Below are positions 49,783 through 64,000 of a DNA stretch of 64,000 nt, piece by piece (position 1 is the stretch's first letter; every line of letters begins with the position of its first letter). Under the pieces are notes generated by a model that saw nothing but the letters and a program-made list of their open reading frames with translations, made no database searches and was not told where the DNA came from. The stretch spans positions 496,001 to 560,000 of the forward strand of contig NZ_JAIUIE010000001.1 of assembly GCF_020165495.1 (NCBI RefSeq), read 5' to 3'. The DNA comes from Mesorhizobium sp. BR1-1-16 (GTDB lineage Bacteria; Pseudomonadota; Alphaproteobacteria; Rhizobiales; Kaistiaceae). A program made the position numbers and the translations under genes.

Positions 49783-50640
49783 TCAGCCCTTGATCCCGCT
49801 CATGGCGATGCCCTGGATGAAGGTGCGCTGGGCGAAGACGAACGCCACGAGCAGCGGAAGCAGCGCAAGCACCGCGCCGGCCATGACGACGCCGTATTCG
49901 ACCACATGGCTGCCGACGAAGAGCGCGAGGCCGGCGGGCAGCGTGCGCATCTCCATCGAGGAGGTGATCAGCAGCGGCCACAGAAAGTCGTTCCAGTTGT
50001 ACATGAAGTGGAAGACGGCGAGCGTCGCGATCGCCGGGCCCGAGAGCGGCAGGATGATGCGCCAGTAGATGCCAAATTCGCCGCAGCCATCAATCCGCGC
50101 CGCTTCGTCGAGTTCCTTCGGCAGCGTCACGAAGAATTGCCGCAGCATGAAGATGCCGAAAGCGTTGGTCGCGCGCGGCACGATCAGACCGGAATAGCTG
50201 TCCAGCATGTGCAGATCGTGCACCGTCACGAAGAGCGGCACGAACATCACCTGGAACGGCAGCATGAGCGCCACCAGGATCAGCACGAAGATGACGTTCC
50301 GACCCCTGAATTGCAGCCGCGCCAGAGCGTAGGCGGCCATCGAATCGAGCAGCAGCGACACGATGGTGACGCCGCCGGCGAAGAGGATCGAGTTCAGGAA
50401 CAGCCGCGCGAAGGGAATGCGGGTCCAGACATTCTCGTAGTTCTCGAAGGTCCAGCGATGCGGCAGAAGCTGCGGCGGGAAGGTCGCGATCTCGCTTTCT
50501 GGCTTCAGCGAGGTGAACAACATCCAGATGAACGGAAACACGACCGCGAGCGCCAGGAGACCGAGCACGACCAGAGTGACGGTGGTGAAGAGGGTCGTCG
50601 GCTTCGCCCCGGGGCCGGCGCCGTCGAGCACATCGGCCAT
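49783..50640 (-). CDS. Sugar ABC transporter permease (MalG/UgpE type)
   Basis: This 285-residue inner-membrane protein has six helices and the permease EAA loop ELDEAARIDGCGEFGIYWRIILPLSGP, which contacts the ATPase. C-terminal helices and the WPLLITSS segment suit the carbohydrate CUT1 group. The ATG at 50640 has GGAGGA about 7 nt upstream. It follows the other permease by 2 bp. No ATPase gene lies in this operon. Confidence 0.93.
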   Translation of the reverse strand: MADVLDGAGPGAKPTTLFTTVTLVVLGLLALAVVFPFIWMLFTSLKPESEIATFPPQLLPHRWTFENYENVWTRIPFARLFLNSILFAGGVTIVSLLLDSMAAYALARLQFRGRNVIFVLILVALMLPFQVMFVPLFVTVHDLHMLDSYSGLIVPRATNAFGIFMLRQFFVTLPKELDEAARIDGCGEFGIYWRIILPLSGPAIATLAVFHFMYNWNDFLWPLLITSSMEMRTLPAGLALFVGSHVVEYGVVMAGAVLALLPLLVAFVFAQRTFIQGIAMSGIKG

Positions 50641-50642
50641 GA

Positions 50643-51560
50643 TCAATCCTCCCAGCTGCGGGTAATCCGCAACTGCGCGAGCGTCAGCAGGAACACGACG
50701 GCGAACAGGAAGATGCCGATCGAGGCCGCATAGCTGAGGTTTAGGTTGGTGATGCCCTGGCGGTAGATGTAGGTGACCAGCGTCTCGGTCGAGAACAGCG
50801 GCCCGCCACCCGGCGTCATGACGAAGGCGGGATCGAAGACCTGGAAAGCGCCGATGATCGAGATTACCAGCACGAAGATGTTGGTCGTCCGCAACTGCGG
50901 CCAGGTGACGTTCCAGAACTGCTGGAAGCTGTTGGCGCCGTCGATCCGCGCTGCCTCATAGAGCACGATCGGGATCGCCTGCAGGCCGGCGAGATAGATC
51001 ACCATGTTGAAGCCGAGATTCTTCCAGAGGCTCGCGATGATCACCGCGGGCATGGCCAGGTTGGGATCGCGCAGCGGGCTCACATGCGGCATGCCGAGGA
51101 AGGACAGCCAGTAGGCGAGCAGGCCGATATCGGGATCGAGCATGAAGCGCCAGGCGAGCGCAACGATGGCGAAGGAGGCGATCACCGGAAGGAAGAAGGC
51201 GCTGCGGAGCAGGGCGCGGAAGGGGATGGCGCGGTTGAGCGCCAGTGCGAGCGCCAGCGGCAGCGCCACGCCAAGCGGAACGGTGAAGGCGGTGTAGTAG
51301 ACCGTGTTGCCGAGCGCGTTCCAGAAGCGCGCGTCCCGCCACATCCGCGCATAATTGGCAAAGCCCGCCCACTCCTGCGCGTCGGCCGAGAATTTCCACT
51401 TATGCAGGCTGAGGTCGAACGAATAGACGATCGGCCAGAACACGAAGACGGCCAGCACGATGAGGCTCGGCGCCAGGAAGCACCAGGCCGCGATCGTCGT
51501 CCTGTTGGGCATCGCCGGCCAGGGACGGCTCGGCTGAAGCCGTGCGGTTCGAGAAGACAT
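50643..51560 (-). CDS. Sugar ABC transporter permease (MalF/UgpA type)
   Basis: This roughly 305-residue permease has six helices, the first at about residues 25-48 (WCFLAPSLIVLAVFVFWPIVYSF). The EAA loop is LYEAARIDGANSFQQFWNVTWPQL, and the late FVMTPGGGPLFSTETLVTYIYRQ is a CUT1 hallmark. The start is chosen at the ATG at 51560; ATGs at 51569 and 51512 are also in frame and none has a strong ribosome site. It forms the channel with the next permease. Confidence 0.9.
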   Translation of the reverse strand: MSSRTARLQPSRPWPAMPNRTTIAAWCFLAPSLIVLAVFVFWPIVYSFDLSLHKWKFSADAQEWAGFANYARMWRDARFWNALGNTVYYTAFTVPLGVALPLALALALNRAIPFRALLRSAFFLPVIASFAIVALAWRFMLDPDIGLLAYWLSFLGMPHVSPLRDPNLAMPAVIIASLWKNLGFNMVIYLAGLQAIPIVLYEAARIDGANSFQQFWNVTWPQLRTTNIFVLVISIIGAFQVFDPAFVMTPGGGPLFSTETLVTYIYRQGITNLNLSYAASIGIFLFAVVFLLTLAQLRITRSWED

Positions 51561-51625
51561 GGGCGGCATTCCGGATCGAAGCGAGGAAGGATGGGCGGCC
51601 GGTGCAGCCGCCCATCCTCGAGGCT

Positions 51626-52852
51626 CTACGGGTTGAGCAGGTCGGAAAGCTGGTCGTTCGCCTGCTGCGCGGCCTCGGCCGCCTTTTCCTTGCCGAACGT
51701 GATCGACTGGATCATCGGCGTGAACACGTCGCCGTCGATCTGCGCGAAATTCACCTGGTTCGGCAGGCTGAACCGCGAGACCGGCACGACGGTGGAGAAT
51801 TTCGCCGCCCATTCATTGGTGAGCTCGGGGCTGCCGGATAGATCGGTGCGCAGCGGCGGGAAGCCGGTGTCGTTGGCGATCTTCAATTGGGCTGCCTTCG
51901 AGTTCCACATCGCGACGAAGTCGAGAGCCGCCTTCGGATCCTTGGTTGCCTTGTTGATGACGAGCACGATCGAATCGGCCAGCGTCACCGGTCCCCCGGG
52001 GCCGGTTGGGATCGGCGCGACGTCATAGTTGAGCTTCGCGGCAGTGAAGCCGTTCGTCATCCACGGGCCGGTGATCTCCATTGCCGCCTTGCCGGACTGG
52101 AAGAGCTTGTCGGCATCGGCGCCGGAAAGCCCCGTCGGCGTGATCTTGTCGTTGAGGACGAGGTCGCCCCACAGCGTCAGGGCCCCGACGGTCTTGGCAT
52201 CGTCCAGATAGGGCTTTCCGTCCTTGATGACGTCGCCGCCATTGCCCCAGAGAAGGATCGGCCAGTTCGGGATCGTCTCGTGATCGGGGATCAGCAGGCC
52301 ATATTGTGAATTGCTGCCGGTCACCGTGGTCTTCTTGATCGCAGCGACCCAGTCGTCCCAGGTCTTGGGCGGCTCGGAAATGCCGGCCTTCGCGAAGATG
52401 TCCTTGTTGTAATACATCATCAGCGTCGCGAAGTTCAGCGGCGCCGCGTAGTATTTGCCGTTGTACTGCAGGACTTGTTTCAGTCCGTCGGACCAGACAG
52501 ACGGGTCGAGCGCGCCGCCGGCCTTCACCTCGTCGGTGATGTCCATGATGAAGCCGCTTTCAGCATAGCGCGGCAATTGCGCGAAGTTGAAAGCCACCAC
52601 GTCGGGACCCGAGCCGCTCGCCATGGCGGCCTGCAGCTTCTGCAGCATGCTGTCCCAGGGCTCGATATCCATCTGCACCGGCGTGTCCGGATGCGCATCG
52701 CTCCACTGTTTCGTCAGCGCCTCGATGGTCGGCCGGTCAGGCCCGGTGAATCCGTTCCAGAAGGTCAGCGGCGCGGCGAACGCGGCCGAGCCGCAAACCG
52801 TGGCGGCGATCGCGACGATCGACGCGGAAGCCAGAGCTGCGATCCGTTTCAT
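51626..52852 (-). CDS. Sugar ABC transporter solute-binding protein
   Basis: The protein has 408 residues with a Sec signal peptide (cleavage near SAAFA-A, residue 27). The mature part starts PLTFWNGFTGPDRPTIEALTKQW and contains MYYNKDIFAKAGISEPPKTWDDW and KAAMEITGPWM, all typical of extracellular solute-binding family 1. GGAGGA sits 7 nt before the ATG at 52852. It is the first gene of the operon SBP-permease-permease-GH1, so its ligand is probably the glycoside cut by the GH1 enzyme. Confidence 0.92.
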   Translation of the reverse strand: MKRIAALASASIVAIAATVCGSAAFAAPLTFWNGFTGPDRPTIEALTKQWSDAHPDTPVQMDIEPWDSMLQKLQAAMASGSGPDVVAFNFAQLPRYAESGFIMDITDEVKAGGALDPSVWSDGLKQVLQYNGKYYAAPLNFATLMMYYNKDIFAKAGISEPPKTWDDWVAAIKKTTVTGSNSQYGLLIPDHETIPNWPILLWGNGGDVIKDGKPYLDDAKTVGALTLWGDLVLNDKITPTGLSGADADKLFQSGKAAMEITGPWMTNGFTAAKLNYDVAPIPTGPGGPVTLADSIVLVINKATKDPKAALDFVAMWNSKAAQLKIANDTGFPPLRTDLSGSPELTNEWAAKFSTVVPVSRFSLPNQVNFAQIDGDVFTPMIQSITFGKEKAAEAAQQANDQLSDLLNP

Positions 52853-53052
52853 TGTCATTCCTCCCTGTTTGGCCGAGGGGCCGAAGCGCAGCGGCCTTCC
52901 AGCCCCCGGCGCTGCCGCGGTCCTCTCCTCCGGCGGCGAAATGCAGGATTAGTTATTTTATTATCTTCAGCAAGTGATATTTTAATCCGTGCGCTTCCGC
53001 CCCATTGATCGCCGGGCGCCGCATGGCATGCTGCCCGCAACGAGGGGAAGAA
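52853..53052. promoter_or_regulatory. AT-rich divergent promoter of sugar cluster A
   Basis: The 200-bp gap between the SBP gene (-) and the LacI gene (+) holds an unusually AT-rich block at about 52944-52985. Inside it GTTATTTTATTAT and GTGATATTTTAAT form an approximate direct repeat. This is the likely site of both promoters and of LacI binding, although no canonical LacI-family operator with a central CG can be seen. Confidence 0.5.
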
Positions 53053-54087
53053 ATGACGGCCCGTACCCGAAAGCCCACCATGTTCGATGTCGCGCGCGAG
53101 TCGCAGGTCTCGCAGGCGACCGTCTCGCTCGTGCTCAACGGGGTCGCCGGGGTCCGCGTCTCCGAGGCGACCCGGCAGCGGATCATCGAGACCGCGGAGC
53201 GGCTCGACTACAAGCGCTCATCGCGCGTGCGCGCCGACTGGCGCGACGGCGCCTCGATCGGCCTCGTCATCGACGACCTGATGGCAAGCCCGTTCGCGGT
53301 GAACTTCATGGAGGGCGCGCGCGAGGCGGCATGGGAGGAGGAATGCGTCGTCGAGGTGATCTCGACCCGCAACAACCAGCCGATGGAGCAAGCCGCGATC
53401 CAGTCCATGCTGCAGCGGCCCGTCGCCGGCATCATTTACGCGACATTGTTCACGCGCGAGGTGACGGCGCCAGTGGTGCCGCCCGACATCCCGCTGGTGC
53501 TGCTCAACTGCTACGACCCGCGCGGCGAGCAGGATTCGATCCTGCCCGATGATCGCGGCGCGGCGAAAGCGCTGGTCGGCGCCATGGTGAATGCCGGCCA
53601 TCGCCGCATCGCCCATCTCGCCGGCGAAACCTTCCTCGATGGCGGCCGCGACCGGTTGCTCGGCTATCGCGAGGCGCTGGAGGCTGGCGGGATAACGGTT
53701 GATCCGGAACTGGTGTTGCACCAGGGCTCCGCGATCTCGGACGCCTATGCCAGCACCTGCGCGCTGCTCGATTCCGCCGATCCGCCGACAGCGATCTTCT
53801 GCTTCAACGACCGCATGGCGCTGGCGGCCTATGAGGCGGCGCGCGACCGGGATGTCAGCGTGCCGCGTGATCTCTCGATCGCCGGCTTCGACAACGACCC
53901 GCTGGTGACGGCGTTCTTCCCGAATCTCATGACGGCCGTGCTGCCGCATGAAGCGATGGCACGCCAGGCCGTCCGCCGCATCCTGGAGCGCCGCCGCGGC
54001 AAGCCTGCCGCGGCGCGTCGCGAGGTGCTCGACTGCCAGATCCTGCGCCGCCGTTCAGTGGCGCGTCCGAAAGCGCCAACGAAATAG
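53053..54087 (+). CDS. LacI-family transcription regulator
   Basis: This 344-residue regulator has the N-terminal helix-turn-helix TMFDVARESQVSQATVSLVLNG and hinge helix region ending RLDYKRSSRVRADW. A periplasmic-binding-protein-like sensor domain follows (IGLVIDDLMASPFAVNFMEGA, IAHLAGETFLDGGRDRLLGYREAL, AIFCFNDRMALAAYEAA). GAGGGG precedes the ATG. It is divergent from the sugar ABC/GH1 operon and is its probable local regulator. Confidence 0.92.
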   Translation: MTARTRKPTMFDVARESQVSQATVSLVLNGVAGVRVSEATRQRIIETAERLDYKRSSRVRADWRDGASIGLVIDDLMASPFAVNFMEGAREAAWEEECVVEVISTRNNQPMEQAAIQSMLQRPVAGIIYATLFTREVTAPVVPPDIPLVLLNCYDPRGEQDSILPDDRGAAKALVGAMVNAGHRRIAHLAGETFLDGGRDRLLGYREALEAGGITVDPELVLHQGSAISDAYASTCALLDSADPPTAIFCFNDRMALAAYEAARDRDVSVPRDLSIAGFDNDPLVTAFFPNLMTAVLPHEAMARQAVRRILERRRGKPAAARREVLDCQILRRRSVARPKAPTK

Positions 54088-54099
54088 CGTCGGCGTCCG

Positions 54100-54684
54100 T
54101 TAGGGCATCTGAGGCGTGCCGCCATCGTCGCGATCTCGTGTTGCCGCCAGCGTTGCACGATAGGCGGCCGTCAATCCGTCGAGGACTGGTGAGCCGATGG
54201 TGCCGTTCGCGCCGTCGATGGGGTGCGTAATGTGGATGGCGCGAAGATCCGTCATGAATGCCTCCCACATGGCTGGTCCTCCTTCTTCAAGCAGACGGGC
54301 CCGGATGCTCAGCGCCTCGCTGACCGGCAGGTGTCGGCGGCCCCAGGCGCCGAGCGACGCAATGACAGGAACCAGCTGGATCGAAGGCTCGGTCAGGCTG
54401 TAGATGGACTTCTGGCTGTGGCTGGGGTCATCCTGCTTCGAGATGAGGCCGAGGGCGACAAGGCGTTTCAGCCGCGCCGCCAGAATGTTCGAGGCGATGC
54501 CTTCGTCGGATCGCGTCAAAAGTTCGCGAAAATGGCGCCGATTGCCGAACATCATGTCGCGGATGATCACGAGGCTCCAGCGGTCGCCCAGCACTTCCAT
54601 GGCCAGATTAATCGGGCAGCCCGACCGCCTTTCGATGTCCAAGATCATCTCCATTGAAACCGATTGCAAAATAAGATCGGTCAT
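54100..54684 (-). CDS. HxlR-family transcription regulator
   Basis: This 194-residue protein has a central winged-helix HxlR domain (RRSGCPINLAMEVLGDRWSLVIIRDMMFGNRRHFRELL, residues 20-57, then RLKRLVALGLISK). A Cys in RRSGCP is the position that senses electrophiles in HxlR relatives such as HypR/YodB. The C-terminal extension of about 80 residues is unassigned. It converges on the LacI gene and is divergent from the DHFR-like gene, which it probably controls. Confidence 0.88.
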   Translation of the reverse strand: MTDLILQSVSMEMILDIERRSGCPINLAMEVLGDRWSLVIIRDMMFGNRRHFRELLTRSDEGIASNILAARLKRLVALGLISKQDDPSHSQKSIYSLTEPSIQLVPVIASLGAWGRRHLPVSEALSIRARLLEEGGPAMWEAFMTDLRAIHITHPIDGANGTIGSPVLDGLTAAYRATLAATRDRDDGGTPQMP

Positions 54685-54700
54685 GCGAGATAACAACCAG

Positions 54701-54713
54701 TTGCAAATCGCAA
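54701..54713. promoter_or_regulatory. Probable HxlR operator
   Basis: The dyad TTGC-N5-GCAA (54701-54713) lies in the 42-bp gap between the HxlR and DHFR-like genes, just before the GGAGGAG ribosome site. A similar GATTGCAAA element is at 54662. Position in a divergent pair suggests autoregulation and control of the neighbour. This is inferred. Confidence 0.5.
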
Positions 54714-54726
54714 TCGGAGGAGTGTC

Positions 54727-55368
54727 ATGGGTAAGGTGCGCGTCGCAGGTTTTGCGCTTTCGATCGATGGCTTCGGGGCCGGTCCCGAGCAGAGCCTCGA
54801 CAATCCCCTTGGAGTAGGTGGGCGCGACCTGCATCGCTGGTTCTTTGGCACGCGGACCTTCCGCGCGATGTTCGGCCAGGGAGATGGATCCGACGGCGTC
54901 GACGAGACCTATGCGTCACGGTCGATGAGCGGGTTCGGCGCGTTCATCCTCGGGCGCAACATGTTCGGGCCGATCCGCGGCGAATGGCCTGACGACGCCT
55001 GGAAGGGCTGGTGGGGCGACAACCCGCCTTATCACACGCCGACCTTCATCCTCACCAATCATGCCCGCGCGCCGATCGAGATGGAAGGCGGCACCCGCTT
55101 CGTCTTCGTGACGGAAGGCATCGAGGCGGCGCTGGAGCGGGCGCGGGAGGCGGCCGGAGACCTCGATGTCAAGATCGGCGGCGGCGTCAGCACCGTGCGG
55201 CAATATCTCCTGGCCGGGCTGATCGACGAACTGCATTTTGCCATCTCGCCGGTGGTGCTCGGGCGCGGCGAAGCCATGTTCGCCGGCATCGACCTGCCGG
55301 GCCTCGGCTTCAAGGTCAAGGAACACGCAACGACCGAACTCGCCATGCATGTCGTGCTGGCGCGGTAG
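54727..55368 (+). CDS. DHFR/RibD-C-like reductase
   Basis: This 213-residue protein has the RibD C-terminal/dihydrofolate reductase fold: VRVAGFALSIDGF at the start, GAFILGRNMFGPIRGEW, PTFILTNHARAP, the NADPH loop VKIGGGVSTVRQYLLAGLIDELHFAISPVVLGRG and a terminal MHVVLAR. These small proteins are often controlled by redox or xenobiotic regulators, and an HxlR gene is divergent here. Its true substrate is unknown. It is not the main folate reductase. Confidence 0.85.
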   Translation: MGKVRVAGFALSIDGFGAGPEQSLDNPLGVGGRDLHRWFFGTRTFRAMFGQGDGSDGVDETYASRSMSGFGAFILGRNMFGPIRGEWPDDAWKGWWGDNPPYHTPTFILTNHARAPIEMEGGTRFVFVTEGIEAALERAREAAGDLDVKIGGGVSTVRQYLLAGLIDELHFAISPVVLGRGEAMFAGIDLPGLGFKVKEHATTELAMHVVLAR

Positions 55369-55384: not shown

Positions 55385-56203
55385 TCAGCCGGCTTCGGAC
55401 GGATCGACCTCGGCCACAGTGACCGTGACGCCGAAGGCGGCAAGGCTCGCCAGGTTCTCCGGCGTCACGCCGCTGTCGGTGATGATCTCGTCGATCCGCT
55501 GCACCTCGCAGAAGGTGCAGAAGGCCGGCGCATGGAATTTTGAGCTGTCGATCAGGAGGATCGTGCGCCGCGCCGAGGAGAGCATGATCCGCTTCATCGA
55601 GGCGATCTCGATGGCCGCGTCCGAGAGCTGGTTGCCGGTGATCGCCTGCGCGCCGACGAAGCAGAGATCGGCGTGCACCGTCTTCAGGAAGGTCTCGCCG
55701 GGATCGCCGACCAGTGTCTGCGAGCCGACGCGCAGCGAACCGCCGGGCACGATGACGCGGATCGCCGGCGCCGCGCGGCAGAGGCTGGCAATATCCAGGC
55801 TGTTGGTGAGGGCCGTCAGTTCGACGCGCCGTTCCACCGCGGCTCGGGCAGCCTCCAGCACGGTCGAACTCGAATCGAAGATCACACTGTCCTTGGATGA
55901 AAGGCGGGTCGCCGCGAGGCGGCCGATCGCGCGCTTCTGCAAGGTGAATAGCTGTGCGTTGGTCGAGGAGTCGAGTTCGAACGTGGCGCGGGTCGGCGTC
56001 GCGAGGACGGCGCCGCCATGTGTGCGCTCGAGATAGCCGGCATCGGTCAGATATTCGAGGTCGCGACGGATTGTCGACGCCGACGCGCCGATGCTCTCCG
56101 ACAATTCCTGGATGGAGGCCGCGCTGTGCTTGCGGAACCATTCAAGGATCATCGCCCGCCGCTTGACCGGAATGATCTCTACACGTTTAGAGACAGGTTC
56201 CAT
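55385..56203 (-). CDS. DeoR-family transcription regulator
   Basis: This 272-residue regulator has an N-terminal helix-turn-helix (SIQELSESIGASASTIRRDLEYLTDAGYLERTHGGAV), followed by the sugar-phosphate-sensing DeoR C-terminal domain (DSVIFDSSSTVLEAARA, TNSLDIASLC, VPGGSLR, CFVGAQAITG, LIDSSKF). Its start lies 17 bp inside the kinase gene, so the two form an operon. It likely senses a phosphorylated intermediate made by the kinase and binds the inverted repeats at 57564 and 57714. Confidence 0.93.
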   Translation of the reverse strand: MEPVSKRVEIIPVKRRAMILEWFRKHSAASIQELSESIGASASTIRRDLEYLTDAGYLERTHGGAVLATPTRATFELDSSTNAQLFTLQKRAIGRLAATRLSSKDSVIFDSSSTVLEAARAAVERRVELTALTNSLDIASLCRAAPAIRVIVPGGSLRVGSQTLVGDPGETFLKTVHADLCFVGAQAITGNQLSDAAIEIASMKRIMLSSARRTILLIDSSKFHAPAFCTFCEVQRIDEIITDSGVTPENLASLAAFGVTVTVAEVDPSEAG

Positions 56204-57485
56204 GGACGGTTCGGCTTTCGATTGAAGTCATGGTTTCGGGATAGACGATGCGCTCGTCATCGGCAATCGCAGCGCCGACCTTGCTTCCAAGCGCGAGCAG
56301 ACAGCCTGCGGTGAATGTGTCGCCGAGCCCGAGTGTCGTCTGCGGGTTGCTGAGGTGGGGCGCCGCCACTGCGACGATCGCCCAGCGTCCGATCCGCTGA
56401 ACCGGCGGCAGTGGCGGATCGAGGAAGAGGGCGCCTTGCGGCGTCTGCCGGGGATGCACGGGGACGCCCGCCGCGGCACGGCATGAGGCGAGGAGCGCGC
56501 CCGCCATCAGAGCATCGCGCTCCAGCGCGGGATCGTCGAGCGTCGCGCTTGCCACCCATTCGTCGGCGTGGACACACACCCGGCGAAGCCCAAAATCCTC
56601 GCCGAGGCCGATCAGTCGCTCTTCGATGCTGTCCGCCGGATTGGAGAGGGCATTGAGTTCCGAAAGGCTCATGCCGAGCGAGGTCACGCGCTTGCCGAGA
56701 CCCGCCAGCATCGCATCGCGCGCCGACGTCGTGGCGTAGCCGGCAAGCTCCAAATGGACGGTCGCGACGCCGCGATCGCGCCAGGCATCCACGATCGCGC
56801 CGATCCTCGCCGTCTCCCCGGCCATGTCCGCCAATGCGACGCCGTTGAAACCCGAGACGACCGCCGCGCCGGCCTCATGCGCCAACGTAACGCTGAGGCG
56901 GTCGAAATCCGCGTCATGCTCGAGACCCGGATCCTCGAAGCGGACGATGATCCGCGACGAGCGTGGCGGCAGATGGCCGGCCAATGGGCGGCCGGCGTCA
57001 TATTCGAAGACATGAATGGGCGGGCGGGGATCGCCGCGCCGCTGTGCCTCTGATGCCGGTACGGCGCGGCCGTCTTCGGCGATCAGGATCGATGGGTCGA
57101 CATGTTCGAGTGTAAAGGCGCTGCGATCGGAAAGCGCAACCAGTCCGCTGGCGCCGAGCGTTCCGAGCGCCCAGGCGATGTGCGAGCCCGTGCCACCAAA
57201 GGCAGTGCGTGGCGGCGCGGCTTTCGCCAGAAGGGCCGGGCCTTCTGGCCATTCCTCGCGGAACTCGCCGCCAATGCCTGCCGCGGCACGGGCGATCAGG
57301 CGGCGGACGAAATCCTCCGTCTCGGCCGTCGGTAGCTGTCCGAGCTGATCGGCGAGCGCCGCGAGCTGAAAGCGGCTGTCGATGCAGGCCGAGAAGCCGC
57401 ACAGCGCCAGGCGCGATGCACCGATATAGCGCTCGAAACGCGGCAGGAATCGCTCATAGGCCGCCTGCCAATCCATTGCGCTCAC
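56187..57485 (-). CDS. ADP-dependent PFK/glucokinase-like sugar kinase
   Basis: This 432-residue kinase has the ribokinase-type fold. The catalytic anion-hole motif near the C-terminus is GLGDTFTAG (386-394, base D389), where the third position is Leu rather than Ala. N-terminal ALCGFSACIDSRFQ and the GGTGSHIAWALGTLGASGLVAL region, with FEYDAGRP and GLGEDFGLRRVCVHADEW, resemble the ADP-dependent phosphofructokinase/glucokinase family, rare in bacteria. I choose GTG at 57485, with GGAGG 7 nt upstream. Sugar and phosphate donor are unproven, and a PfkB-type ATP enzyme is the alternative. Confidence 0.75.
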   Translation of the reverse strand: MSAMDWQAAYERFLPRFERYIGASRLALCGFSACIDSRFQLAALADQLGQLPTAETEDFVRRLIARAAAGIGGEFREEWPEGPALLAKAAPPRTAFGGTGSHIAWALGTLGASGLVALSDRSAFTLEHVDPSILIAEDGRAVPASEAQRRGDPRPPIHVFEYDAGRPLAGHLPPRSSRIIVRFEDPGLEHDADFDRLSVTLAHEAGAAVVSGFNGVALADMAGETARIGAIVDAWRDRGVATVHLELAGYATTSARDAMLAGLGKRVTSLGMSLSELNALSNPADSIEERLIGLGEDFGLRRVCVHADEWVASATLDDPALERDALMAGALLASCRAAAGVPVHPRQTPQGALFLDPPLPPVQRIGRWAIVAVAAPHLSNPQTTLGLGDTFTAGCLLALGSKVGAAIADDERIVYPETMTSIESRTVHGTCL

Positions 57486-57563
57486 TGCGGAACCTCCATT
57501 GTCGCCGCTCTCGAAGGCTAGAGGGCGCCCAGCCGAAGCGTCAATGGGATATATTGAAAGGCG

Positions 57564-57577
57564 TTGGAATATTTTAG
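57564..57577 (+). promoter_or_regulatory. Operator half of a 14-bp inverted pair (left)
   Basis: TTGGAATATTTTAG at 57564-57577 is repeated exactly in inverted orientation at 57714-57727. It lies 79 bp from the kinase start. An AT-rich ATATATTG element at 57549 lies next to it. Probable DeoR site. Confidence 0.6.
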
Positions 57578-57713
57578 AGCGAAACTCAGGTGTGTAGCTG
57601 ATGCTGCAGGTGCGAACGACGTATTCTAACCTGTTTGTGCAGCGCGGCAGCGGATTTATGAGCAATCGCTTGACGACTTGCGCAATGACGGATCATTCTG
57701 CGGCAATAATCTC

Positions 57714-57727
57714 CTAAAATATTCCAA
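57714..57727 (-). promoter_or_regulatory. Operator half of a 14-bp inverted pair (right)
   Basis: CTAAAATATTCCAA is the exact reverse complement of 57564-57577, with 136 bp between them. It lies 31 bp before the aldolase start. Two sites this far apart would permit DNA looping across the divergent promoter. Confidence 0.6.
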
Positions 57728-57758
57728 ACTCGTTCAGTCAGTGTCGGAGCTCCCAGAC

Positions 57759-58787
57759 GTGTCTCGCCTCGAATCCAAGCTCGCCAACATCCGTGCCGGC
57801 CGCTATCGGCGCAGCGATTTTATCATTGCCGATGCCAAGGACGGCGATATGGGATCGGGCGTCACCTATGCCGCGCCAAAGCGCGACGCCGATGGAAGCT
57901 GGTCGCGCTATCGCACGCGGCAGGAATTCCTCGAGGGCATCCGGGCGATCGTCGAGCAGGACATCGTCGACATCATGCTGACCTCGGTTTCCAACCTGGA
58001 GCGGCTGGTCGAGATGGGCGTGTTCGTCGGGTCCGCGGTCAAGCCGGCAATCCGCGCCAATGACGCGACCGACTGCTGGGGCGGCGTGCGCGGCCAGACC
58101 TATGGCAAGACGCCGAGCCGACCATTCCGCACGGCCGATCTCGGCCGCGTGATGCAGGCCGTTGTCGGTCCGACGCCGGGCGAGCCGCTGACCGATCTCG
58201 GCCTCTATTCAGTGACCTTCAACAATGACGTCGAATCCGACCTGCGGTCTCTCGAGGAGTTCGCGGCGTTTCGCGACGAGGCGGCGCATTGGAGGCTGCG
58301 CTACTTCTATGAGGTGTTCAATCCGAATGTCGCCTGCGGCGTCGATCCGGAGTTGATCCCGCATTACGTCAATGACTGCATCATCCGCTCGCTGTCCGGC
58401 GTCTCGATCGCCGACCGGCCGCTGTTCCTGAAGATCCCCTATAACGGCGCCAAGGCGCTGGAGGAGCTCGCCTCCTTCGATCCCTCGCTGGTCGTCGGCG
58501 TGCTCGGCGGCGGAGCGGGAACGGCGCGCGATACGTTCGAGCTGATCTATCAGGCCGAGCGCTATGGCGGCCGTCTGGCGCTGTTCGGGCGCAAGATCAA
58601 CCTTGCCGAGGCGCCGCTCGAAATCATCCGCCTGATGCGCGAAGTCGCCGACGGGACGATCCTGCCGGCGGAAGCCGTCAGGACCTATCACGCGAAGCTG
58701 AAGGACGCCGGTATCCCCTCGATCCGTTCGCTTGAGGACGATCTTGCCGTGACCGAAGCGCCGCTGAAGCCGGCTGCGAGCGGCTAG
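57759..58787 (+). CDS. TIM-barrel class I aldolase-like protein
   Basis: This 342-residue protein looks like a DeoC/LacD-type barrel: DFIIADAKDGDMG, VDIMLTSVSNLERL, YSVTFNNDVESDLRSL, LRYFYEVFNPN (E185), LFLKIPYNGAKALEEL and VVGVLGGGAGTARDTFELIYQAERYGGRLALFGRKIN with a phosphate-type glycine loop. K225 in FLKIPYNG is placed like the Schiff-base lysine. I do not recognise a characterised family member. I use GTG at 57759, 9 nt after GGAG; GTG at 57741 and TTG at 57678 are alternatives. It is divergent from the kinase. Confidence 0.7.
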   Translation: MSRLESKLANIRAGRYRRSDFIIADAKDGDMGSGVTYAAPKRDADGSWSRYRTRQEFLEGIRAIVEQDIVDIMLTSVSNLERLVEMGVFVGSAVKPAIRANDATDCWGGVRGQTYGKTPSRPFRTADLGRVMQAVVGPTPGEPLTDLGLYSVTFNNDVESDLRSLEEFAAFRDEAAHWRLRYFYEVFNPNVACGVDPELIPHYVNDCIIRSLSGVSIADRPLFLKIPYNGAKALEELASFDPSLVVGVLGGGAGTARDTFELIYQAERYGGRLALFGRKINLAEAPLEIIRLMREVADGTILPAEAVRTYHAKLKDAGIPSIRSLEDDLAVTEAPLKPAASG

Positions 58788-58830
58788 GGGAGGGGCGCCC
58801 GTGTTGACAAGCGCCCGCAAATGGCCGGCC

Positions 58831-59982
58831 TCAAGGAGAGGCCGGCAGACCCTGCAGGGCAGCTGCCTCGGCCTCGCCGAGCGCGGCCGGGCGGATATCG
58901 GGCGCAGCCTCGATCTCGATCGTGCGGTCTTCGAGGCCGGCGGTCAGGATCGATTCCATGATGTCGAGGACATGCAGCGCGAGCTCGCCCGAGGCGCGAG
59001 GCTTGCGGTCGGTCGCGAGCGATGCGGCGAGATCGGCGACGCCCAGCATGCGGTAATTGGCGCGATCGGGCGCGGCGTAGGGCCAGTTGATCCGGCCGTG
59101 CAGCAATTCGGCCGTCGAATGCTCCTGCCAGGGCGCGCCCGCGTCGCTGATCGCCACCGTTCCGCCGAACGTGTCGGGATCGGGCAGGCGCAGCGAGCCC
59201 TTGGTGCCATGGAGTTCGATCGGATGGTTGCCATGGGCGAAGACATCCCAGCTCATGACGAGGGTCACCACCGCGCCTCCAGCGAATTCGAGCAGCGCCA
59301 TCACCGTCGTGGGCGTTCCGACCGGGAAGCTCGTTCCCTGGAACGGGCCGGCTGCAGTGATCAGCCGCTCGGCCTGGCCGGAGGTCGCCACGGCGCGGAC
59401 GCGGCGAACCGGCCCGAGCAGGCTCACCAGCATGGTGATGTAGTAGGGGCCCATGTCGAGCACGGGGCCGGCGCCGGGCTGATAGTAGAATTGCGGATTG
59501 GGGTGCCAGTGCTCCATGCCGCGGCCCATCATGAAGGCGGTGCCGGCAACGGGCTTGCCGATTGCGCCCTCATCCATCAGCCGCCGTGCGAGCCGACCGG
59601 CCGCGCCGAGAAAGGTATCCGGCGCAGAGCCGATCGCGAGGTTACCAGCGCGCGCAGCCTCGACGAGTTGGCGGCCCTCGGCGGCCGTCACGGCGAGCGG
59701 CTTCTCCGTGAATACATGCTTGCCGGCCTGGAGCGCAGCCATCGAGACGTCGAAATGCGCCGCGGGAATAGTGAGATTGAGCACGAGATCGACATCGTCG
59801 GACGCAATGATCTCGTCGACGCTCATGGCCGGGATGCCGTATTCGCGGCCGCGCAGCGCGGCCTGCTCCGGCGCGATGTCGGCGCAGGCGGCCAGGCGGA
59901 CGCCGGGGAACAGCGCGGCGTTGCGCATATAGGTCATCGCGATGTTGCCGCAGCCGACGATGCCGATGCGCAGATGCTTCAT
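58831..59982 (-). CDS. Gfo/Idh/MocA family NAD(P)-dependent dehydrogenase
   Basis: The protein has 383 residues. An N-terminal Rossmann fold (IGIVGCGNIA, 6-15) holds the cofactor, and EKP is present (93-95). The C-terminal substrate domain has VLDMGPYYITMLVSLLGPV, a form in which the usual catalytic His of the D-x-G-x-H motif is Tyr. Members oxidise sugars, inositols or sugar acids. It is convergent with the aldolase and divergent from the ABC operon, sharing its 224-bp promoter region. It is a plausible first oxidation step of cluster B. Confidence 0.92.
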   Translation of the reverse strand: MKHLRIGIVGCGNIAMTYMRNAALFPGVRLAACADIAPEQAALRGREYGIPAMSVDEIIASDDVDLVLNLTIPAAHFDVSMAALQAGKHVFTEKPLAVTAAEGRQLVEAARAGNLAIGSAPDTFLGAAGRLARRLMDEGAIGKPVAGTAFMMGRGMEHWHPNPQFYYQPGAGPVLDMGPYYITMLVSLLGPVRRVRAVATSGQAERLITAAGPFQGTSFPVGTPTTVMALLEFAGGAVVTLVMSWDVFAHGNHPIELHGTKGSLRLPDPDTFGGTVAISDAGAPWQEHSTAELLHGRINWPYAAPDRANYRMLGVADLAASLATDRKPRASGELALHVLDIMESILTAGLEDRTIEIEAAPDIRPAALGEAEAAALQGLPASP

Positions 59983-60121
59983 GAAATCCTCCCGCTCATT
60001 GTTGTTGGACCGGCTTGTGTGCAGCCCCCGCGGGCTTGGCTCCTGATCCGATACGCGATCCTAAACCAAAGCTTCATTCCGATTTGTGCATTTTTTTGCA
60101 TGCTGTTTTTTGCGAAAGAAT

Positions 60122-60140
60122 GCTTGACCGTGCGTCAAGC
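60122..60140. promoter_or_regulatory. Perfect dyad overlapping a -35-like element
   Basis: GCTTGAC-CGTGC-GTCAAGC is a perfect 7-bp inverted repeat with a 5-bp spacer. It contains TTGACC (60124-60129), which looks like a -35 box, so a repressor bound here would block the ABC operon promoter. T-rich tracts flank it at 60091-60112. Confidence 0.55.
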
Positions 60141-60206
60141 CCGGTCAAGATGGCCTGAACAGAAAAGATCCGCGGCGCAAGGTCCGCAGGACAAAGGGAG
60201 AGAGAC

Positions 60207-61553
60207 ATGTCTCAGGATGAATCCGGCCGTTCGGCTGCGAAGACAGCGCTTGCCGCATCGCTCAACCGCCGCAGCCTGCTGAAGGGTGCCAGTCTGGCGG
60301 CGGGTTCTATGGCGTTGGGTGGCGGCCTTCTCGCCTCGACATCATCAGGCGCCCGCGCGGCTGACCGCACCGAGATCACGTTCGCCAGCGCCAAGTTCTA
60401 CGCCAAGAAGACGATCGCTCAGATCGTGGACGCCTTCAACGAGAGCCAGAGCAAGATCCACGTCAAATATATCGAGCTGCCGCCGCCGAGCTCCTCGACG
60501 GAAGTGCACCAGGCGCTGGTGCAGCAGCTGGCCCGGCGCAACGGCGCTCCCGACGTCTTCACGCAGGACGTGGTCTGGATCGCGGAATTTGCCGGCGCCG
60601 GCTGGGCGCTGCCGCTCGACGAATATTTCCCGGCTGCGGCGCGCGCCGAATATTTCCCGGGCCTCATCGATGCCTGCACCTATCAGGGCAAGCTGACGGC
60701 GCTGCCCTGGATCGTCGATGGCGGCATGCTTTTCTACCGCAAGGACCTGCTGGAAGCTGCCGGCGCCAAGGTTCCCGAGACCTGGGCCGACATGGCGATG
60801 ATCGCTGCCGAGCTCCAGAAGGGCGGCAAGGTCGATTTCGGCTATCTCTGGCAGGGCAAGCAGGCTGAGGTTCTCGTCTGCGATGCGGTCGAGGTCATCG
60901 CGTCGAACAACGGCTCGATCCTCTCCTCCGATGGCAAGACCGCAAGCGTCGGCAGCGACCAGGCCGTCGAGGCGATGCAGTTCCTCTACGACACCATCAA
61001 CAAGACCAAGATCAGCCCGGCGGATGTTCTGTCCTGGGATGAGGAGCCCTCGCGTCTGCCGTTCACGGCCGGCAAGGCGGCATTCCTGCGCAACTGGTCC
61101 TATGTCTATGGCATCGCACAGGATCCGAGCGCGTCGTCCGTTGTCGACAAGGTCGGCGTCGCGCCGCTGCCGCATTTCGCGGGCGGCAAGAGCGCGGCCT
61201 GCCTCGGCGGCTACCAGTATGGCGTGAATGCCTCGACCAAGAATCGCGAGGCGGCGGTGGAATTCCTCACCTGGATGTCGTCGCCGGCGACGCAGCTGCG
61301 TTTTGCGGTCGATCTCGGCTTGGCGCCAACGCGCCCGGCGGTTTTCAACGAGGCGGAACTCGCCAAGGAGCAGCCGTTCATGCAGACGCTGCAGGGCGTC
61401 TTCACCGGCGCGACGCCACGTCCCGTGACGCCGAAATATGCCCAGGTCTCGCTGGCGCTGCAGTCTGGCTTCTCGCGCGGCCTTGTCTCCGGCGATATCA
61501 AGAAGGAGCTCACCGCGACCGCCTCCAAGATCGACGCGATCCTCGGCACCTGA
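60207..61553 (+). CDS. Sugar ABC transporter solute-binding protein, Tat-type signal
   Basis: The protein has 448 residues. The N-terminal region has a twin-arginine-type signal (NRRSLLKGASLAAG at about 20-33, then an Ala/Gly stretch to SSGARA). The mature part is family 1 extracellular binding protein: EITFASAKFYAKKTIAQIVDAFNES, PDVFTQDVVWIAEFAGAGW, LPWIVDGGMLFYRKDLLEAAG and AAVEFLTWMSSPATQ. Its stop overlaps the next gene's start (TGATG). GGGAGAGAGAC precedes the ATG. Ligand is unknown. Confidence 0.92.
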   Translation: MSQDESGRSAAKTALAASLNRRSLLKGASLAAGSMALGGGLLASTSSGARAADRTEITFASAKFYAKKTIAQIVDAFNESQSKIHVKYIELPPPSSSTEVHQALVQQLARRNGAPDVFTQDVVWIAEFAGAGWALPLDEYFPAAARAEYFPGLIDACTYQGKLTALPWIVDGGMLFYRKDLLEAAGAKVPETWADMAMIAAELQKGGKVDFGYLWQGKQAEVLVCDAVEVIASNNGSILSSDGKTASVGSDQAVEAMQFLYDTINKTKISPADVLSWDEEPSRLPFTAGKAAFLRNWSYVYGIAQDPSASSVVDKVGVAPLPHFAGGKSAACLGGYQYGVNASTKNREAAVEFLTWMSSPATQLRFAVDLGLAPTRPAVFNEAELAKEQPFMQTLQGVFTGATPRPVTPKYAQVSLALQSGFSRGLVSGDIKKELTATASKIDAILGT

Positions 61554-62491
61554 TGTCGCTGCAACAGACAGCCTCTGCCATCGCCGGTCCCCGAAAGGGG
61601 GCCGGCAATCCGTTCCGATGGCAATTTGTGACGCCCTGGCTGCTGCTGCTGCCGGCGTTCCTCTCGCTCGCCTCGGTCTCGGTCTATCCGATCCTGAAAG
61701 GCCTCTGGCTTTCCTTCACCAATACATCGCTGGTCACGCAGGAGCACGACTTCATCGGCTTCGGCAATTATCGCCTGCTGTGGGTGGATGATCTCTTCTG
61801 GAATGCCTGGTGGCATACCATCACCTTCACGGCCGTCTCGACGCTCGCCGAGACGCTGCTCGGGCTTGCCATCGCGCTACTGCTCTTTGAGCATTTTGCC
61901 TTTCGCGGCGTCGTGCGCGCGGCGATGCTGGTACCCTGGGCCATGCCGACGGTCGTGACGTCGAAGATGTTCGGCTGGCTGTTCGACGGCCAGCACGGCC
62001 TCATCAATTACCTGCTGAAATCGGCAGGCATCATCAAAGACAACGTCAACTGGCTCGGCTCGGTCGACAATGCGCTCTGGACGATCATCTTCGCCGATGT
62101 CTGGAAGACGACGCCCTTCATGGCGCTGCTGCTGCTCGCCGGCCTGCACACGATCCCGAAATCGCTGATCGAGGCAGCCCGCATGGACGGCGCGCGCTCG
62201 CTCGCGACATTCTGGTATGTGAGGCTGCCGATGCTGCTGCCGACCCTCCTTATCGCCGGCCTCTTTCGCGCGCTCGACGCTTTCCGCGTCTTCGACCTCG
62301 TCTATGTGCTGACTGGCGGCGGCCCGGCGGATTCGACCGAGACGCTGTCGACGCTCAATTACAAGACGCTCTTCTCGACGCTGCAGTTCGGCTACGGCTC
62401 GGCGATCTCGACGGCGATGTTCATGACGGAGGCGCTCATCGCACTCGGCTTCTGCATCTTCCTCTATGAACGGCTCAGGCGGCAGAAATGA
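61553..62491 (+). CDS. Sugar ABC transporter permease (first)
   Basis: This 312-residue six-helix permease of the UgpA/MalF type has EAA loop LIEAARMDGARSLATFWYVRLPML and the late LVYVLTGGGPADSTETLSTLNYKTLF. Start ATG overlaps the SBP stop codon and its stop overlaps the next permease start (ATGA), so all three are coupled. Confidence 0.93.
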   Translation: MSLQQTASAIAGPRKGAGNPFRWQFVTPWLLLLPAFLSLASVSVYPILKGLWLSFTNTSLVTQEHDFIGFGNYRLLWVDDLFWNAWWHTITFTAVSTLAETLLGLAIALLLFEHFAFRGVVRAAMLVPWAMPTVVTSKMFGWLFDGQHGLINYLLKSAGIIKDNVNWLGSVDNALWTIIFADVWKTTPFMALLLLAGLHTIPKSLIEAARMDGARSLATFWYVRLPMLLPTLLIAGLFRALDAFRVFDLVYVLTGGGPADSTETLSTLNYKTLFSTLQFGYGSAISTAMFMTEALIALGFCIFLYERLRRQK

Positions 62492-63324
62492 TTTATGCGT
62501 ACAGCCCACTGCGCCGCATCGGTCTTTATTTCGGGGCCTTACTGGCACTCATCTGGTCCGGCGGCCCGTTCTTGTGGCAGTTGTCGAGCTCGTTTCAGCT
62601 CGACCGCGAGCTGACGACCGGCTCGCCGAAATTCTGGCCCGCACCCTTCACGATCGAGCATTATGTCAATCTCGTCGTCGAGAAGAGCTTCCAGGAATAC
62701 ATCTACAATTCGATCATCGTCGCCAGTCTGACGACGCTCTTCTGCCTGTTCGTCGGCGCGCTCGCAGCGTTTTCGCTGTCACGGCTTGATGTTCGCGGCA
62801 AGTTCGGCGTGCTCGGCATTATCCTGTCGATCTCGATGTTTCCGCAGATCGCCATTGTCGGCCCCCTCTATCTGCTCGCTTCCGATCTCGGGCTGCTCGA
62901 TACCTATGCGAGCCTCGTGATCACCTATCTGGCGCTCGGATTGCCGCTCGTGACATGGGTGCTGTTCGGCTATTTCGAAACGCTGCCGCGCGAGATCGAC
63001 GAGGCGGCGCGGATGGATGGCTGTTCGACGCTTGGGCTCCTTTTTCGCATCATCCTGCCGATTTCGCTGCCGAGCCTCGTGACGACGGGCCTGCTCGCGT
63101 TCATCGCCGCCTGGAACGAGTTCATGTTCGCGCTCGCCTTCACATCTTCGATCGATCATCAGACTGTGCCGGTCGGCATCGCAAACTTCACCAATCTCTA
63201 TTACGTGCCATGGGGCGACATCGCCGCCGCCTCCGTGGTGGTGACCGTGCCGCTGATCGTGCTGGTGCTGATCTTCCAGAAGCACATCATCGAAGGCCTG
63301 ACGCAGGGCGGAGTAAAGGAGTGA
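62488..63324 (+). CDS. Sugar ABC transporter permease (second)
   Basis: This 278-residue permease of the UgpE/MalG type has six helices, EAA loop EIDEAARMDGCSTLGLLFRIILPISLPS and AAWNEFMFALAFTSS. It overlaps the first permease by 4 bp and the isomerase gene begins 2 bp after its stop. The operon shown has no ATPase, although one could lie beyond the window. Confidence 0.93.
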   Translation: MIYAYSPLRRIGLYFGALLALIWSGGPFLWQLSSSFQLDRELTTGSPKFWPAPFTIEHYVNLVVEKSFQEYIYNSIIVASLTTLFCLFVGALAAFSLSRLDVRGKFGVLGIILSISMFPQIAIVGPLYLLASDLGLLDTYASLVITYLALGLPLVTWVLFGYFETLPREIDEAARMDGCSTLGLLFRIILPISLPSLVTTGLLAFIAAWNEFMFALAFTSSIDHQTVPVGIANFTNLYYVPWGDIAAASVVVTVPLIVLVLIFQKHIIEGLTQGGVKE

Positions 63325-63326
63325 CC

Positions 63327-64000
63327 ATGCAACGCGACGTCAGAGTCGGCTGCCAGACTTTCACATGGGAAATGCTGGGCAATGCCTGGCGGGGCGGCCC
63401 CGACGACCTGCTTGACGCCATTGCCGCCGGTGGCTATGCCGGTATCGAGATCACCGACACGATGATCGGTCATTATGCCGGGCGTCCGAGCGCCTTCGGC
63501 GAAGCGCTTGCGACGCGCGGCCTCGACCTCGTGGCCTTCGCCATCGGCTCGGACAGTGGCTTCACCGAGCCGTCCATGGTCGAGGCGGATCTCGAGGATG
63601 TCGCCCGCGCCATCACCTTTGCCGGAGCCTTCCCGGGCGCGCTGGTCTCGATCGGCTCGGCAACCGTGATGTCGCCGGGCGATCGCGCCGCGAAATTCGC
63701 AACGGCCGCCGACTTCTATAATCGCGCAGCGGCTCTCGGCCAGGCGGCGGGGGTCGGCGTGGCGGTGCATCCGAGCTCGCATCACAACACGCTGCTCTTC
63801 GATCGCGCCGACTATGACCGACTGTTCGCGCTCCTCGACGACAGCGTCGGCTGGGTGCCGGATACGGGTCACATGCTGCGTGGCCATCCGGACATGCTGG
63901 ACACACTCGGCCACTATCAGGCTCGCATCCGCTATCTCCACCTGAAGGATGTCGATGCGTCCGGCAAGTGGGCGATGCTCGGCGCTGGTGTCTGCGATAC
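63327..64000 (+). CDS. Xylose-isomerase-like TIM-barrel sugar isomerase/epimerase, partial
   Basis: The gene starts at ATG 63327, 2 bp after the permease stop, and remains open to the window edge (about 224 residues seen). The N-terminus MQRDVRVGCQTFTWE, then GYAGIEITDT, VAVHPSSHHN, VPDTGHMLRG and RYLHLKDVDASGKW, is that of the AP endonuclease 2/IolE-like family, with metal ligands E, D, H and H. Members isomerise, epimerise or dehydrate sugars and inosose. It belongs to the ABC operon and thus to cluster B. Confidence 0.88.
   Translation, partial: MQRDVRVGCQTFTWEMLGNAWRGGPDDLLDAIAAGGYAGIEITDTMIGHYAGRPSAFGEALATRGLDLVAFAIGSDSGFTEPSMVEADLEDVARAITFAGAFPGALVSIGSATVMSPGDRAAKFATAADFYNRAAALGQAAGVGVAVHPSSHHNTLLFDRADYDRLFALLDDSVGWVPDTGHMLRGHPDMLDTLGHYQARIRYLHLKDVDASGKWAMLGAGVCD

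Follow-up and report, generated by a model that had tools for sequence, protein, structure and literature searches.

The stretch of DNA considered here, called the window, comprises 64,000 nucleotides from the 5.2 Mb genome of a soil bacterium (G000:C1:496001-560000), and close to its end lies a group of genes for a DeoR-family regulator, an ADP-dependent phosphofructokinase/glucokinase (ADP-PFK/GK)-type sugar kinase, a TIM-barrel protein that I will call ALDB, a Gfo/Idh dehydrogenase, an ABC importer and an IolE-like protein (Table 1). A preliminary description of this DNA had listed these genes in this layout and had called the kinase uncommon and the aldolase-like protein unlike any family it recognized; family scans of the window proteins found every one of the genes, placed the kinase in PF04587 and placed ALDB in no catalogued family. 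The minus-strand regulator gene overlaps the kinase stop by 17 bases within the same unit, ALDB is divergent from this kinase/DeoR unit, and the Gfo/Idh gene is divergent from a run formed by the substrate-binding protein (SBP), two permeases and the IolE-like protein. The sequence beyond position 64000 completes the IolE-like gene (whole in L009:9324-10142, ending 142 bases beyond the window) and reveals a second kinase-aldolase set further on; no ABC ATPase was found among the proteins scanned between 55385 and L009:10142. Comparison across many genomes suggests that the kinase would phosphorylate a sugar that ALDB would then split in two.

Table 1. Genes and repeats of the locus, in window coordinates.
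Feature	Coordinates	Strand	Remarks
DeoR-family regulator	55385..56203	-	PF00455 (DeoRC) 136.2 bits, PF08220 58.4 bits
ADP-PFK/GK-type sugar kinase	56187..57476	-	likely start ATG 57476; open reading frame open from 57665; PF04587 52.9 bits, cut-off 27
14-base repeat CTAAAATATTCCAA	57564..57577	-	candidate operator upstream of kinase; exact match
Inverted copy of 14-base repeat CTAAAATATTCCAA	57714..57727	+	upstream of ALDB; exact match
ALDB, class I aldolase-like TIM-barrel protein	57759..58787	+	likely start GTG 57759; open reading frame open from 57678
Gfo/Idh/MocA dehydrogenase	58831..59982	-	PF22725, PF01408
ABC importer substrate-binding protein (SBP_bac_1)	60207..61553	+	PF01547 152.6 bits
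ABC permease 1	61553..62491	+	PF00528 65.3 bits
ABC permease 2	62488..63324	+	PF00528 62 bits
IolE-like xylose-isomerase-type TIM barrel (AP_endonuc_2)	63324..64000, on to window-equivalent 64142	+	PF01261 82.5 bits

Not one of 30 ALDB members matches any Pfam model at E 0.01, PF01791 (the family of YihT) included, and the window's own ALDB matches nothing in Pfam or NCBIfam at E 0.001. Weak NCBIfam matches among the 30 members are to an ADH synthase model (21/30, best 1.4e-5), a second ADH synthase model (5/30), an LsrF-type thiolase model (PRK08227; 16/30, best 1.2e-6) and an archaeal FBP aldolase model (4/30), none of these four being matched by the protein of the window itself. Among PDB sequences the ALDB profile finds LsrF alone (best 18.8 bits, E 0.0078), and the predicted structure, with a predicted local distance difference test score (pLDDT) of 89.9, leads in Foldseek first to LsrF, the M. 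jannaschii ADH synthase and archaeal FBP aldolase, the top 50 rows running from E 6.3e-9 to 3.7e-6. ALDB thus resembles the superfamily of LsrF, archaeal class I FBP aldolase and ADH synthase, all relatives of PF01791, in its TIM barrel, its glycine-rich loop, its GR motif and a lysine that alignments place on the same strand, but stands apart at 11-17% identity over those 50 rows and in matching PF01791 in none of the 30 members. The lysine in question, K225 (numbered from start 57759), belongs to an FLK motif and is invariant in the 30-row alignment; in hhalign comparisons it is paired with the VVK lysine of P0001, a DeoC/LacD protein of another genome (PF01791 105.2 bits), at 94% probability and, more weakly, with the MLK lysine of the LacD-type aldolases of the neighbouring cluster at 56.5%, while a plain profile alignment of ALDB and LsrF falls one residue off this pairing. 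The aligned lysine is presumably the Schiff-base former of the DeoC/LacD relatives. Of the features of the DeoC/LacD family, ALDB therefore shows the barrel and the lysine position (model, Foldseek and hhalign) without matching the profile, and I regard it as a putative aldolase.

For its partner, the term ADP-type is used here as a label for the PF04587 family, since the phosphate donor (ADP or ATP) is not deducible from sequence. PF04587 is the sole Pfam match of the kinase and exceeds the curated cut-off (Table 1), and the closest NCBIfam equivalog is reached with 41.3 bits at a cut-off of 387. The predicted model (pLDDT 85.2) has ADP-dependent PFK/GK structures as its best Foldseek matches, from 9.4e-23, with the first other kinase following at 6.4e-7, so the fold is that of the PF04587 family and not the plain ribokinase fold. 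In addition, H289 and E291 (HxE) and G431-D434 (GLGD) are invariant in all 19 aligned members, and HxE and GxGD I take to be the motif names of the ADP-dependent sugar kinase family. Profile, fold and motifs are therefore those of ADP-dependent glucokinases and phosphofructokinases, although the window kinase is only 15-20% identical to the solved members listed, falls far under the NCBIfam cut-offs and, unlike them, is placed in sugar-catabolic clusters of Alphaproteobacteria. The window's genome holds two matches to the family at E 0.001, namely the window kinase and one past the window, and matches occur in 2 of 14 control genomes, both archaea.

The relationship between these two proteins becomes apparent when ALDB is followed through other genomes. 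The best 80 of at least 539 confirmed ALDB relatives on genome contigs, together with the window's own locus, gave 81 loci, in which a kinase label required a score of at least 60 bits against reference proteins from the loci themselves. A sugar kinase lies within 2.5 kb of ALDB in 71 of the 81, of the PfkB type in 43 and of the ADP type in 28, never both, whereas control bands 5-7.5 kb away contain neither kinase type in any of 128 cases; an FGGY kinase is additionally present within 2.5 kb in 10 of the 71 paired loci. Kinase type was then compared with an ALDB tree (quick maximum likelihood, 103 proteins, no bootstraps, some long branches, root not inferred) in which 90 proteins are labelled, 34 ADP-type and 56 PfkB, and 13 of the 103 rows bear no label; L088, with its kinase at 3.95 kb, and L121, with a kinase several genes away in the same locus, were counted as ADP-type, and labels for L107-L170 were assigned by hand from neighbourhoods and annotations. 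On this tree the kinase type changes once, as compared with a mean of 27.5 and a minimum of 22 changes in 500 label shuffles, and the ALDB rows with ADP-type partners all fall within a single clade, whose 42 rows also include unlabelled ones (Shimodaira-Hasegawa-like approximate likelihood ratio test, SH-aLRT, 96). Because there is a single change on the tree and there are at least 22 in the shuffles, it appears from the sequences that one kinase family replaced the other once, in a direction that the unrooted tree leaves free, and that the pair was then kept together through many lineages.

Looked at from the side of the kinase, the clade to which it belongs is represented by 25 matches, spread over 20 of the 397 genomes sampled from the order, and 17 of these matches lie within 1.5 kb of ALDB, one (G015) lies at 6.5 kb and seven do neither. 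Five of those seven adjoin a LacD-type aldolase instead: the kinases of G013, G006 and G096 and the second kinases of G000, the window's genome, and G001, of the same genus, located 8.0 and 8.2 kb, respectively, from ALDB. Two frames of this clade, G096:C14:81452-82663 and G001:C4:67497-68711, contain one stop each (TAG and TGA, respectively), possibly frame ends, decay or assembly error.

The aldolase can be exchanged as well. Orthologs (57-97% identity) of the five upstream genes, that is, Gfo, SBP, permease 1, permease 2 and the IolE-like gene, occur all together in seven further loci (L027, L057, L080, L083, L113, L163 and L164) and four of the five occur in L028, among 121 loci searched, some of which are copies of one genome, L080/L083 and L163/L164 being pairs of close relatives. 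The module accompanies an ADP-type kinase and ALDB in L027 and L057, lies about 3 kb from a PfkB kinase and ALDB in L080 and L083, and is found with ALDB and no such kinase in the locus in L028 and L113. In L163 and L164, from the genus of the window's genome, the orthologous module is accompanied by an ADP-type kinase and by a LacD-type aldolase instead of ALDB, and no observation speaks more strongly for ALDB being an aldolase than this substitution of a LacD-type enzyme at the place that ALDB takes elsewhere. The preliminary description had proposed one linear pathway made of all of these parts; the gene set does recur elsewhere, as it had supposed, but the kinase-ALDB pair has a far wider distribution than the Gfo/IolE module, so a single chain is not borne out and the two are better regarded as modules that combine.

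The same substitution bears on an unlikely alternative, namely that ALDB is some other Schiff-base enzyme (an LsrF-like thiolase, a transaldolase-like or an isomerizing enzyme) acting on the sugar phosphate of its partner kinase without ending in dihydroxyacetone phosphate (DHAP). This would suit the observations that LsrF is the only relative found at the level of PDB sequences as well as the first Foldseek fold, and that 16 of the 30 members weakly match the thiolase model. However, the orthologous upstream genes also occur with a LacD-type aldolase where ALDB would otherwise be, and the matches to the ADH synthase and archaeal FBP aldolase models are equally weak, so that the thiolase is not singled out.

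Furthermore, L163 and L164 extend the locus itself, as in both of them the upstream module is joined to a short-chain dehydrogenase/reductase (SDR), a LacD-type aldolase, a kinase, a DeoR regulator and another SDR, the very genes that lie past the window in G000 (L009:10936-17587, window-equivalent 64936-71587: SDR, LacD-type aldolase, second ADP-type kinase, DeoR, SDR and AGE-family isomerase). For this reason the real locus in the window's genome probably comprises two kinase-aldolase pairs and extends from about 55.4 kb to window-equivalent 69.8 kb or further. In the PDB the LacD-type aldolase of the second set is closest to 8tnf (151.3 bits), titled sulfohexulose-1-phosphate aldolase, and in NCBIfam to the tagatose-bisphosphate type (224.5 bits, over the cut-off of 184); the AGE-family protein, which is YihS-like, is closest to 2afa (237.5 bits, labelled NAG isomerase) and then to the sulfoquinovose isomerase 7ag4 (233.5 bits), with D-mannose isomerase as best NCBIfam model (356.1 bits, below the cut-off of 600); and the last SDR is closest to D-xylose 1-dehydrogenase, below its cut-off.

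These likenesses raise the question of sulfosugars. In the sulfo-Embden-Meyerhof-Parnas (sulfo-EMP) route the sugar is isomerized, phosphorylated at C1 and cleaved to DHAP and an aldehyde, and non-orthologous kinases (PF00294 or PF00365) and aldolases (PF01791 or PF01116) serve at the same steps (PMC9594981). The step logic and the exchange of kinases and aldolases are alike here, but the window differs in its PF04587 kinase, which belongs to neither PF00294 nor PF00365, and in an aldolase of an unnamed family. The view that the whole locus is a sulfo-EMP-like route with kinase and aldolase replaced could draw on the 8tnf and 7ag4 matches, but I find it very unlikely, given that the best NCBIfam models are D-mannose isomerase for the AGE protein and the tagatose-bisphosphate type for the aldolase, and that ALDB matches nothing in Pfam, not even the PF01791 of YihT. 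For the second pair past the window a sulfosugar is an open possibility, since the AGE-type isomerase scores highly to sulfoquinovose isomerase structures.

An inositol-type route, in which Gfo/Idh and the IolE-like protein would make a keto-deoxy acid and kinase and ALDB would replace IolC and the final aldolase, is suggested by the likeness of a Gfo/Idh dehydrogenase, an IolE-like protein and an ABC importer to myo-inositol catabolism (iol). The IolE-like protein does score 60.9 bits to TIGR04379 (cut-off 290), and IolC_N is the best NCBIfam model for the PfkB partners of ALDB in both examples scanned (81.7 and 86.5 bits, at a cut-off of 300). However, no iol model is reached at its cut-off by the Gfo (TIGR04380, 69.5 of 355 bits) or IolE-like protein of the locus; iolB, iolC and iolD, absent here, exceed their cut-offs together on contig C7 of the same genome; and xylulokinase, ribulokinase and lyxose isomerase, with which ALDB keeps company elsewhere, have no place in an inositol route, which leaves the idea quite unlikely and allows standard myo-inositol catabolism to be rejected. 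The preliminary description had likewise judged that this was neither standard inositol nor 2-keto-3-deoxygluconate (KDG) metabolism, and indeed no KDG aldolase or kinase signature appears among the Pfam and NCBIfam matches listed for the seven complete window proteins. The Gfo/Idh protein reaches no NCBIfam cut-off, and its closest PDB chains, at 69-74 bits (6a3f, 1,5-anhydrofructose reductase, DgpA1 and L-glucose dehydrogenase), are separated by so few bits that none is singled out as a guide to the substrate.

Other surroundings of ALDB speak to the position of the phosphate. On two Agrobacterium pAt plasmids (L107:4631-13955 and L108:2630-11955) genes for a GlpD-like dehydrogenase, for an FGGY kinase and for a Ugp-type importer are followed by ALDB and then by a sugar-binding regulator, and neither locus was found to contain a kinase of the PfkB or ADP type; by analogy with glycerol-3-phosphate dehydrogenase, the GlpD-like enzyme and the FGGY kinase would convert a polyol to a ketose-1-phosphate, which is also what a ketose-1-kinase would produce. 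In three 1.4 Mb genomes of the same class (L129, L130 and L131; 32-34% G+C over 18 kb stretches) ALDB lies between a xylulokinase and a PfkB kinase and is adjoined by a D-lyxose isomerase, an RbsABC-like importer and a ribokinase, and in three other genomes it is surrounded by ribulokinase, AraD and PfkB, families having been scanned in one genome of each of these two sets. These three contexts, together with the title of 8tnf, favour, without proving, a ketose-1-phosphate, and thus presumably a phosphate on C1; ketose bisphosphates are possible after two kinases where an FGGY kinase is also present.

Taken together, sequence, predicted fold and gene neighbourhood lead me to read the locus, with a probability of roughly two in three, as a sugar or polyol catabolic one built from two modules, in which the kinase and ALDB form a kinase-then-aldolase pair giving DHAP and an aldehyde. 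The ABC importer, Gfo/Idh dehydrogenase and IolE-like protein would import a carbohydrate and convert it to a ketose, the ADP-PFK/GK-type kinase would phosphorylate this ketose, most likely at C1, and ALDB would carry out Schiff-base retro-aldol cleavage on K225.

Several points weigh against this. Choosing the best 80 of at least 539 loci skews the comparison toward close relatives, and 10 of the 81 have no such kinase within 2.5 kb (L028, L036, L046, L055, L058, L059, L072, L082, L078 and L088), L028 nonetheless possessing its four of the five upstream genes. L088 carries an ADP-type kinase at 3.95 kb and L078 only broken pieces of one; a kinase-ALDB fusion was considered for L078 and rejected, since the upstream part consists of kinase matches in pieces in different frames. 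For two of the 25 clade kinases (that of G076 and the second one of G017, which lies 12.8 kb from ALDB), the 16-17 kb examined around them contain no ALDB and no LacD-type aldolase, and the role of an extra aldolase in the ribulokinase/AraD loci is not obvious. A different carbonyl chemistry is possible for ALDB, given that the weak NCBIfam matches of some members include a thiolase and ADH synthases besides an aldolase. Also, the portions of the literature consulted report no experiment or activity for any ALDB member; similarly, in titles and abstract openings, with subscription work mostly outside, neither ALDB nor a PF04587 kinase from a cluster of this kind was seen as the subject of a paper, which is no proof of absence.

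The occurrence of the pair among many different neighbours, and a locus such as L028 with ALDB and most of the module but no kinase, could also be taken to mean that the neighbours are unrelated and the pair is a housekeeping side reaction. I consider this the least probable of the alternatives, as the five upstream genes are complete with ALDB or a LacD-type aldolase in seven further loci. Going beyond the kinase-then-aldolase reading, one might speculate, doubtful as it is at present, that ALDB is a separate family of ketose-1-phosphate class I aldolases, that PfkB was replaced once by a truly ADP-using ketose kinase in aerobic Alphaproteobacteria, making ADP the phosphate donor for sugar in a catabolic pathway of bacteria, and that two such kinases and two different aldolases in the window's genome split two different ketoses derived from a single imported carbohydrate.

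Full-length ALDB is present in 54 of 397 genomes sampled from the order (66 with any match), in 7 of the 385 sampled from the class (8 with any match) and in 4 of the 319 sampled from the phylum, every one of the four belonging to the same class (18 with any match), these counts omitting the weak partial matches of 12, 1 and 14 genomes, respectively; outside, it was found on one contig labelled Eremiobacterota (L078) and on two Vibrio plasmids. In the 40 plasmid rows listed, the gene is a 'hypothetical protein' where named, three rows also naming an overlapping neighbour. If the kinase-then-aldolase reading is true, a family found in those 54 genomes would gain a function, a further class I aldolase family would become usable for carbon-carbon bond making, and ADP-type sugar kinases would be given a part in the sugar catabolism of bacteria. 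The exchange of kinase families on one side and aldolase families on the other would also be a clean natural case of non-orthologous replacement in a two-enzyme step.

Turning to regulation, the likely starts of the kinase (near 57476) and ALDB (near 57759) were placed because of conservation and the positions of the 14-base repeat CTAAAATATTCCAA, which, with up to 2 mismatches allowed, matches the window twice (0.04 expected), in two exact copies that are inverted relative to each other. Both copies lie upstream of the two starts, placed as an operator would be, and the DeoR regulator presumably binds them. The repeat pair was found in the kinase/ALDB promoter region only and not ahead of Gfo/SBP, and a single operator common to all units was rejected, since in neither the window nor L027 nor L028 do the two divergent promoter regions have a 16-mer in common, even with 3 mismatches allowed. 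A loose form of the repeat has 6 sites in the 31 ADP-type loci listed, where 0.4 would be expected, and a family-wide site was rejected, the loose form being upstream of ALDB in 5 of the 31.

Just ahead of the locus, 49783-54087 encodes another ABC importer (SBP 51626-52858 and two permeases, judged by reading) with a LacI regulator (PF00356), and 54727-55368 encodes a RibD_C-domain protein, next to a divergent gene (region 54100-55368) whose translation reads like an HxlR-type regulator.

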